Positions 25,206-27,485 of a DNA stretch of 64,000 nucleotides are shown piece after piece. Origin of the DNA: Protaetiibacter sp. SSC-01 (GTDB taxonomy: Bacteria; Actinomycetota; Actinomycetes; Actinomycetales; Microbacteriaceae); assembly GCF_014483895.1 (NCBI RefSeq), contig NZ_CP059987.1, forward strand, positions 2,232,001 to 2,296,000, given 5' to 3'. Made by a program: the position numbers and the translations under genes. The notes under the pieces are model-generated. The model had not been told where the DNA came from, searched no databases, and worked only from the letters and a program-made list of their open reading frames with translations. The number at the start of each line of letters is the position of its first letter. Position 1 is the stretch's first letter.

Positions 25206-27485
25206 TCAGCGGCCGAAGCGGAGGCGCCGCAGCAGCTGCGCGTTGAGCGCCACGATGACGGTCGACACGCTCATGAGCACCGCGGCGAGCCACGGCGGCA
25301 TGAGGAATCCGACGCCCGCGAGCACGCCCGCGGCGAGCGGGATGCCGAGCGCGTTGTAGCCGGCCGCCCACCACAGGTTCTGCACCATCTTGCGATAGCT
25401 CGCGCGGCTGAGCGTGATCGTGTCGACGACACCGCGGGGGTCGGACGAGGCGAGCACGACGCCCGCGGACTCGATCGCGACATCCGTGCCCGCACCGATC
25501 GCGATGCCGAGGTCGGCCGTCGCGAGCGCGGGGGCGTCGTTGATGCCGTCGCCGACCATCGCGACGCGCGCCGCGCCGCCGCGCTGCAGCGTCTCGACCT
25601 CGCCCGCCTTCTGGTCGGGCAGCACCTCGGCCCGCACCTCGTCGATGCCGAGGCGCTTCGCGACGTGCTCGGCCACGACGTGCGAGTCGCCCGTGAGCAT
25701 CGCGACGCGCACCCCGCGGCGGTGGAGCGCCGTGACGGCCTCCGCCGACTCCTCGCGCACGCGGTCGGCGATCGCGAAGACCGCGACGACCCGCGCATCC
25801 GTCTCCCCGCCCTCGACGAGCGACACGGCCGTCGAGCCCTCCGCTCCCGCGTCGCGCACGGCGTGCACGAGCGCGGTGTCGAGGCGGATGCCGCGCTCGG
25901 TCACGTAGCGTCCGCTCGCGACCGCGAGCTCGCGTCCGTCGACCGTGGCCGTCGCGCCCCGCCCGGCGAGCGCCCGGAAGCCGGTCGCCTTCGGTACGGT
26001 CAGGCCGCGCTCGCGCGCCGCCTCGACGATCGCGCGGCCGATGGGGTGCTCGCTGCGCCCCTCGACGGCCGCGGCGAGCGCGAGCGCCTCGTCCTCGGTC
26101 ATGCCGTCGACGACCGTGACCGCGGCCACCGCCTGGCGGCCCTCGGTGAGGGTGCCGGTCTTGTCGAAGAGCACGACGTCGATGTCCTTCGCCTCCTCGA
26201 GGGCCGCACGACTGCGGATGAGCACGCCGCGGCGCGCGCCGATCGCGGTCGAGAGCTGCGCGACGAGCGGGATGGCGAGGCCGAGCGCATGCGGGCAGGC
26301 GATCACGAGCACCGCGACGACGCGCTCGAGCACGAACGCGGGGTCGTCGGGGCGCAGCATCCACCAGGCGGCGAGCGTCACGAGGGCCGCGCCCACGGCG
26401 ACGTAGAAGAGCAGCGCGGCAGCCCGATCCGCGAGCAGCTGCGCGGGCGAACGGCTCGCCTGCGCGTCCTCGACGAGGCGCATGATGCCCGCGAGGGCGG
26501 TGTCGCCGCCCGTGCGCGTCACCTCGACCGTGAGGGAGCCGGATGCGATGGAGCCCGCGACGACCGCGTCGCCCTCGGACTTCCCGACGGGCACCGACTC
26601 GCCCGTGAGGAGCGACTCGTCGACCTCGGCCTCCCCCTCGACGACGGTGCCGTCGGCGGGGATCGCAGCACCTGGACGCACGAGCACCCGGTCGCCGACC
26701 GCGAGCGCGGAGCGAGCGACCGTGACGGGCTCGCCGTCGCGCAGCACCTCCGCCTCGTCGGGCAGCAGCTTCGCGAGTTCGCCGAGGGCGTTCTGCGCGC
26801 CGTGCACGGCCGACATCTCGATCCAGTGGCCGAGCAGCATGATCGTGACGAGCGTCGCGAGCTCCCACCAGAAGTCCATGCCGGGCAGGCCGAACATGAC
26901 GGCGACCGAGTAGGCGGTCGACACGACGATCGCGAGCGAGATGAGCGTCATCATGCCGGGGCTCTTCGACCGCAGCTCGTCCCATGCGCCCTGCAGGAAG
27001 ATGCGGCCGCCGATCACGACGATCGCCGCGCCGAACGCGGCCGGGATCCACTCGCTTCCGGGGAACCGCGGGCCGCCGAGGCCCAGGATGTCCTGCAGGC
27101 CCGTGGAGAACACGAGCGTGGGGACGGTCAGCGCGAGGCAGATCCAGAACAGCTTGCGGAACCGCAGGGGGTCGTGGCCCGCGTGCGCGGAGTGGTCGTG
27201 GGCGCCGTGGTGGTGGTGCTCACCCGCTGGTTGAGTAGCCGCCGCAGGCGGCGTATCGAAACCCACGTCGTGATGACCGTGGTCGTGATGACCGTGGTGC
27301 TCGTGGTGGTGCTCTACGTCGTGCGCGGGTCTCGATACACCGGCGCTGCGCGCCGGCACTCGACCAGCGGGGGTGGCGTCACCCGCTGGTTGAGTAGCCG
27401 CCGCAGGCGGCGTGTCGAAACCAGCCCCGTGATGACCATGATCGTGGTGACCGTGGTCGTGCCCGTGGTGCTCGTGCCCGCTCAT
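25206..27485 (-). CDS. copB: copper-translocating P-type ATPase, CopB/P1B-3-like, with repeat-bearing His-rich N-terminus
   Basis: 759 residues. Exports copper: phosphorylated Asp441 in DKTGTLTEG, membrane metal site Cys397-Pro-His399 (the CPH form), MVGDGINDAPAL hinge, and MSVSTVIVALNAQ in the last helices, as in P1B-3 ATPases. No CxxC metal-binding domain; residues 1-105 are instead His-rich. Inside this stretch residues about 21-87 are encoded by three palindromic repeats (27225-27425), giving the peptide GFDTPPAAATQPAG twice. ATG overlaps the csoR stop (TGATG), so one operon under CsoR. Confidence 0.93.
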   Translation of the reverse strand: MSGHEHHGHDHGHHDHGHHGAGFDTPPAAATQPAGDATPAGRVPARSAGVSRPAHDVEHHHEHHGHHDHGHHDVGFDTPPAAATQPAGEHHHHGAHDHSAHAGHDPLRFRKLFWICLALTVPTLVFSTGLQDILGLGGPRFPGSEWIPAAFGAAIVVIGGRIFLQGAWDELRSKSPGMMTLISLAIVVSTAYSVAVMFGLPGMDFWWELATLVTIMLLGHWIEMSAVHGAQNALGELAKLLPDEAEVLRDGEPVTVARSALAVGDRVLVRPGAAIPADGTVVEGEAEVDESLLTGESVPVGKSEGDAVVAGSIASGSLTVEVTRTGGDTALAGIMRLVEDAQASRSPAQLLADRAAALLFYVAVGAALVTLAAWWMLRPDDPAFVLERVVAVLVIACPHALGLAIPLVAQLSTAIGARRGVLIRSRAALEEAKDIDVVLFDKTGTLTEGRQAVAAVTVVDGMTEDEALALAAAVEGRSEHPIGRAIVEAARERGLTVPKATGFRALAGRGATATVDGRELAVASGRYVTERGIRLDTALVHAVRDAGAEGSTAVSLVEGGETDARVVAVFAIADRVREESAEAVTALHRRGVRVAMLTGDSHVVAEHVAKRLGIDEVRAEVLPDQKAGEVETLQRGGAARVAMVGDGINDAPALATADLGIAIGAGTDVAIESAGVVLASSDPRGVVDTITLSRASYRKMVQNLWWAAGYNALGIPLAAGVLAGVGFLMPPWLAAVLMSVSTVIVALNAQLLRRLRFGR
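27225..27425. repeat. three palindromic repeats (GGTTGAGTAGC family) inside the copB coding sequence
   Basis: Forward copies at 27225-27263 and 27381-27425 and a variant reverse copy at 27327-27371. All are in frame with the ATPase gene and separated by codons for HHDHGHH-type peptides. Confidence 0.88.

Follow-up and report, generated by a model that had tools for sequence, protein, structure and literature searches.

In the genome analysed here (2.96 Mb, a single contig), the copB gene for a P1B-type copper ATPase contains, near its 5' end, three short palindromes that belong to high-copy repeat families located mostly outside coding sequence. The gene lies within the window, a 64,000-nt stretch comprising genome positions 2232001-2296000. 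It is very likely that the repeats in copB are translated, and their products would separate the His blocks of the N-terminal tail. We consider it quite probable that a REP-like repeat was captured in a disordered, tolerant part of the protein through neutral tolerance combined with a filter on the reading frame.

The copB gene (25206-27485, minus strand, ATG at 27485) encodes a predicted protein of 759 aa, the core of which is matched by the Pfam profiles E1-E2_ATPase and Hydrolase and scores above cut-off with TIGR01511 and TIGR01525. The motif IACPHALG is invariant among the 15 aligned CopB proteins. By these sequence features, CopB combines a P1B core bearing the CPH motif, which we take to place it in P1B-3, with a His-rich N-terminus. 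The closest named relatives among the records shown are from Micrococcales bacterium 72-143 (91%) and Protaetiibacter mangrovi (85%, both for the best segments), in a search that may omit records very near the source genome. Upstream of copB is a gene for a csoR-like metal-sensing repressor (27485-27772, minus strand; PF02583), the stop codon of which overlaps the copB start (TGATG). A 1002-codon open frame runs antisense to copB (window positions 24666-27674, plus strand) and is probably explained by the high GC content.

The three palindromes, along with the open frame across them, had been recognized in the preliminary description of this DNA and are confirmed here. Two of them are type a elements, namely the N-terminal copy at 27388-27422 (plus strand; residues 22-33 of CopB) and the copy nearest the ATPase core at 27229-27263 (plus strand), both reading GFDTPPAAATQP on the copB coding strand. 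The middle element, at 27328-27365 (minus strand), reads GRVPARSAGVSRP on the coding strand and represents type b; hence the initial assignment of all three to one family holds for the type a pair, the third being a member of a sister type. The peptide GFDTPPAAATQPAG is encoded twice and GRVPARSAGVSRP once, between the His blocks, again as originally described, and the predicted translation includes the stretches MSGHEHH..GFDTPP and GFDTPPAAATQPAGEHHHH. The type a copies are part of a 95-nt direct repeat (27220-27314 and 27379-27473; 85% identical), both units of which include a type a element and a His-coding block, with an EHH..GHHDHGHH block adjoining both copies. The units are spaced by 159 nt, i.e., 53 codons; the spacing and the 85% identity over 95 nt agree with duplication, and the shared block leaves room for the possibility that a unit of His block plus repeat was duplicated within copB.

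In the source genome, the type a pattern (GGTTGAGT..TCGAAACC) yields 218 matches, 109 from each strand, and the reversed control pattern none. Type b (GGTCGAGT..TCGAGACC) has 30 matches (16 + 14; control 0), at least one of which (236476) resembles ordinary coding sequence, and type F3 (GGTCGAGGAGCG..TCGAGACC) has 56 (control 0); the three types taken together are denoted F1-like below. In the window, GGTTGAGTAGC with at most one mismatch occurs five times, four of these exact, compared to 0.39 expected from shuffles; together with the empty controls, this rules out chance as the source of the repeats. Types a and b are short palindromes present in high copy number with a common consensus, i.e., they have the features of REPs. 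Among the matches listed, the length of type a elements ranges from 33 to 54 nt, and they have an outer GGTT/AACC, a left side of GAGTAGC or GAGTGC, a right side that is mostly TATCGA or TGTCGA, and an inner stem that varies in sequence but is self-complementary (in 22 distinct 35-mers, its pairs are 86-100% complementary and of 2-3 types). Opposed pairs of elements are frequent and are separated by 22-23 or 63-64 nt. Across loci L002-L030 of the source genome, a conserved spacer of 63-64 nt is common to the opposed dimers that contain long elements, and others have one of 22-23 nt; this arrangement looks like a composite (BIME- or MITE-like) unit.

The intergenic copies that had been reported near 10371-10525 are present, as type a elements at 10392-10424 (minus strand) and 10488-10522 (plus strand). 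The window also contains opposed pairs of F3 elements at 11978-12016 (plus) and 12042-12080 (minus), and at 31986-32024 (minus) and 32073-32109 (plus); one F3 pair is located about 100 nt from a tRNA gene (31818-31889). No Rfam identity could be assigned to the repeats, a gathering-level scan of the window returning two tRNAs alone. From 230 of the 248 type a and type b matches, repeat clusters were built, and a random sample of 80 of the 101 clusters provided 200 unique elements. Twelve of these lie inside coding sequence, the other 188 being unflagged by the dicodon score, so the repeats are mostly extragenic. Nine of the 12 are in-frame elements flagged by the score and the remaining three are those of copB; this count is partly hand-curated because the score misses copB itself, the core of which scores 1.09. 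The earlier view that a mostly non-coding interspersed repeat joined the CopB frame is supported by these data.

The layout of start codons bears on translation. The in-frame starts of CopB are, in order, ATG1, GTG43, GTG74 and GTG125. Given that there is no in-frame start between the proximal (core-side) repeat and the conserved core, this repeat has to be read if the core is intact. Residues D105, F113 and W114 are invariant in the 15 aligned CopB proteins, the first helix in the structure model comprises residues 106-125, and GTG125 falls at the end of this helix, past F113 and W114. The beginning MSGHEHH recurs in the congeners G228 and G127 as well as in G281 (G180 has MSAHEHH), and its presence in the congeners favours ATG1. 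A start downstream of the repeats, which the preliminary description had named as evidence against its own proposal, is disfavoured by this arrangement and by the conservation of the core.

Elements of the same kind are predicted to be read within other proteins of the source genome. The hosts are an Lhr-type helicase (L198, about 320500-324100; NF007284 and WH_Lhr above cut-off), an ABC-F ATPase (matched by EttA-like profiles, with no ABC-F model shown exceeding its cut-off), a CydDC fusion (TIGR02857 and TIGR02868 above cut-off) and an open frame (L232) with a weak, below-cut-off likeness to anthranilate or aminodeoxychorismate synthase component I. Four palindromes are in frame in the Lhr gene; three are type a copies, one of these a near-match, and the fourth is reversed. 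Partial copies follow two of the four. The WH2_Lhr profile matches this protein in two stretches, and one of the insertions lies close to residue 1111, where the best of them ends; two copies lie in or beside domain segments, so capture is not confined to plain linkers. In the ABC-F linker, clear F1-like elements were detected in 5 of the 30 best loci, source included (L267, L268, L269, L271 and L279), and a degenerate one in L295. This survey comprised only those 30 loci, with 98 of 100 genomes matched, and its ranking favours carriers because the query itself held repeats. In-frame palindromes with a recurrent predicted peptide are a feature of copB, Lhr, ABC-F and CydDC, which are unrelated genes, and in this respect the elements are RPE-like coding palindromes.

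The reading frame is recurrent as well. All five flagged type a copies in the GGTTTCGA direction are read in the frame GFDT..TQP, and so are eight of eight when the two copB copies and one Lhr near-copy are added, a bias that rests on about six independent insertions in the source genome. The other two frames of this direction are also open but are basic or contain Cys/Tyr. For one Lhr copy the direction is opposite, and the frame used is the sole open one there; a borderline, unflagged candidate (736847) would read another frame. The lookup of the GFDT peptide is blind to other frames; the dicodon-score run is not. A bias in stem composition was considered as well (CCGCC stems in 2 of 4 flagged 35-mers vs 3 of 50 unflagged ones, with the copB pair counted as unflagged); this signal is weak and was not used.

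The His-rich tail of CopB spans residues 1-102 (101 aa by script count) and is predicted to be disordered, with pLDDT below 50 in the structure prediction. The repeats encode 37 of the first 104 residues of CopB, and none of these 37 is His; all 29 His are among the remaining 67. By this composition, the repeats would provide His-free spacers rather than metal ligands, the His residues coming from the non-repeat blocks. The original suggestion of a repeat-driven expansion of a metal-binding region can be retained to the extent that the tail is lengthened and spaced; as stated, it is unsupported because the repeat-coded residues lack His. The derivation of a His-His pair from a repeat flank was rejected: the AGCCCCGTGATGACC extension beside 27388-27422 shows no strong flank consensus, and the sole flanking sequences to attain 70% in 106 short elements are CCGCT before the element and AGCCC after it.

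Comparison with related genomes points to the history of the insertion. In the congener G228 (L115), copB carries, in the same frame, one element identical to 27229-27263, and in G127 (L116), there is a changed element in an open frame; both share the GCCGCC-TGC-GGCGGC inner stem with the copB copies. The CopB tail of G180 (L114), a locus that matches that of P. mangrovi (L039), is only 32 aa long and has no element. Among 53 flank-distinct 35-nt elements in the sampled source-genome DNA, this stem is present in three, the copB pair and an Lhr element, and the latter is a 35-mer identical to 27229-27263, so the shared stem does not by itself prove common descent. The simplest reading is that the element entered copB in an ancestor of the genus and was duplicated later in the present lineage. 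Relatives in which a like peptide is encoded by a changed repeat, initially named as a finding that would speak against repeat capture, do exist, namely L116 and L124. The latter has the peptide PELVEG, which differs from the repeat of family F2 (see below) by two synonymous changes only, and we regard both as probable old, ameliorated copies.

The CopB survey covered 70 loci from 69 genomes and 33 genera, made up of the 30 best loci plus another 40 taken mostly in rank order with some skipped; 16 named loci, partly from the same genomes, were examined in addition. In-frame palindromes were found in the CopB tails of 4 of the 33 genera and belong to two repeat families. The first carrier genus (g1) includes the source genome, G228 and G127. 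In Galbitalea sp. SE-J8 (G029; L046 and L144 are the same locus), four F3-type elements lie in an open frame between His blocks, and the genome has 157 F3 matches; the start and the full frame of this CopB are not readable because of a 100-nt N run in the tail, and the locus was left outside the P values. Family F2 (TTCGACARGCTCAG), which shares 7 nt (TTCGACA) with F1, is present in the CopB tails of G168, G111 and G037, from one genus, and of G170 and G262, from another. The degenerate candidates L036, L042 and L139 are excluded from the count. The CopB tails of L116 and L118, from two genera, have in common a mostly non-His segment (RPSALASQHGPEMAH and RASALASHHGPEMAH, respectively), which is possibly mobile or transferred.

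Insertions of repeats are much commoner in the CopB tail than in DNA of average density. In the 70 loci, four exact F1 matches were observed vs 0.096 expected at genome-average density (P = 3.2e-6), and six exact F2 matches vs 0.035 (P = 2.5e-12); at 10-fold density, the P values are 0.016 and 1.9e-6, respectively, elements within one tail or genus not being independent. Counted by lineage, the three with exact matches give P = 3.4e-4 at genome-average density and 0.089 at 8-fold density, the latter being our assumption for repeat-tolerant DNA. In these calculations, L144 and L162, which lack a called start, were entered as 300 nt with no match, the tail of L124 was called too short, the floor for tail length was 160 nt, and a few tails were over-long.

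Such recurrence could be taken to indicate an adaptive module, whereby the tail gains reach or metal capacity from the spacers and a duplicated His block, these having been selected for copper tolerance. The excess of exact F2 matches, the spread over four genera and two families, the peptide PELVEG in L124, with just two synonymous differences from the F2 repeat, and the difference in tail length between the source genome and G180 (101 vs 32 aa) are all in line with this possibility. However, the repeat residues contain no His, the same elements are held by unrelated proteins, and among the 26 more distant CopB loci (L157-L182), none of the 25 tails scanned had a match, L162 having no called start; on balance, we regard selection of this kind as unlikely.

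Alternatively, tandem arrays of His codons might be prone to breakage or slippage and so attract hairpin-forming repeats. The element counts exceed expectation even at 10-fold density, and at that density the F1 and F2 statistics lean towards a hotspot over plain tolerance. Moreover, genomes of 3.1-3.2 Mb with few exact F2 copies (five in G111, seven in G170 and eight in G262) keep one, one and two of them, respectively, within the CopB tail. These tail repeats, however, may date from early captures and have persisted while other copies were lost, or may have been transferred together with copB, and the ABC-F linker, which lacks a His array, is also hit recurrently, so we give a preferred landing site little credence. 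Finally, it is highly improbable that the repeats belong to a csoR-copB leader with CopB starting downstream: although GTG74 immediately precedes the proximal repeat, a start there would still retain that repeat, a start at GTG125 would cut off most of the first helix as well as residues that are invariant, and the MSGHEHH beginning is common to the congeners.

Neutral tolerance is the simplest explanation. We propose that a family of about 250 REP-like palindromes of 33-54 bp spreads and persists mostly outside coding sequence, and that a copy landed, probably in an ancestor of the genus, in the part of copB that encodes the disordered, His-rich and variable N-terminal tail. The insertion would have survived because the tail tolerates changes in length and because, in this orientation and frame, the repeat could be read through as GFDTPPAAATQPAG, a peptide rich in Pro/Ala/Thr and free of His. 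Later in this lineage, the unit would have been duplicated and a second repeat type added between the copies, resulting in a CopB with three repeat-coded spacers between His clusters.

REP/RAYT (TnpAREP) systems consist of high-copy hairpins that occur in both orientations and often in pairs. The hairpins described here are likewise high-copy, present in both orientations and often arranged as opposed pairs. A RAYT-type transposase, which the preliminary description had brought up, did not emerge: the Y1 transposase profile PF01797, on which the search relied, has no matches in the source genome, in contrast to 5 of 14 control genomes.

In the literature considered here, the palindromic elements of Rickettsia (RPEs) are described as in-frame insertions that occur in genes unrelated to one another and that each encode a conserved peptide (Ogata 2000, 2002, as summarized in PMC10969869); they are about 150 bp long and nearly half of them lie inside ORFs (PMC10969869). 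The elements described here are similar in that in-frame palindromes with a recurrent peptide occur in unrelated genes, but they are 33-54 bp long, come from a Microbacteriaceae-like genome and have 12 of 200 sampled copies in coding sequence, a comparison of organization rather than of sequences. The GTAG/CGTC-tagged REPs are small palindromes that form dimers and clusters and are mostly intergenic, with some intragenic, for which the discussion mentions flexible linkers or loops (Di Nocera 2013; PMC3733652); the main text of that article has no match for Actinobacter, Microbacter, copper or ATPase. With regard to the GTAG tag, most short type a elements have GAGTAGC before the stem, whereas the elements with GAGTGC, and types b (GAGTGC) and F3 (GAGGAGC) as listed, are mostly without GTAG at this position. 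The outer GGTT/AACC pairing presumably is an extra arm relative to the GTAG REPs. In the literature covered, which includes few subscription papers, we found neither these actinobacterial cases nor the cross-genus recurrence in CopB tails nor the shared frame. In-frame palindromes are already known, as RPEs and intragenic REPs, and the present case is an actinobacterial variant that recurs at homologous tails and linkers, with no RAYT detected.

As a broader and more tentative possibility, several kinds of coding palindromes might repeatedly colonize, in different genera, the same tolerant stretches of protein, among them the CopB His tail and the C-terminal linker of ABC-F, serving as portable linkers read from one benign frame (GFDT..TQPAG, STGSAT, PELVEG), spreading without a RAYT, and tuning the length of tails or loops in conserved proteins. 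Within this high-GC family, comparable captures are seen repeatedly at homologous tails and linkers of different genera, with a common frame in the source genome and RAYT undetected. Comparative genomics could address both the use of REP-type repeats as protein linkers and the spread of palindromes without the usual transposase.
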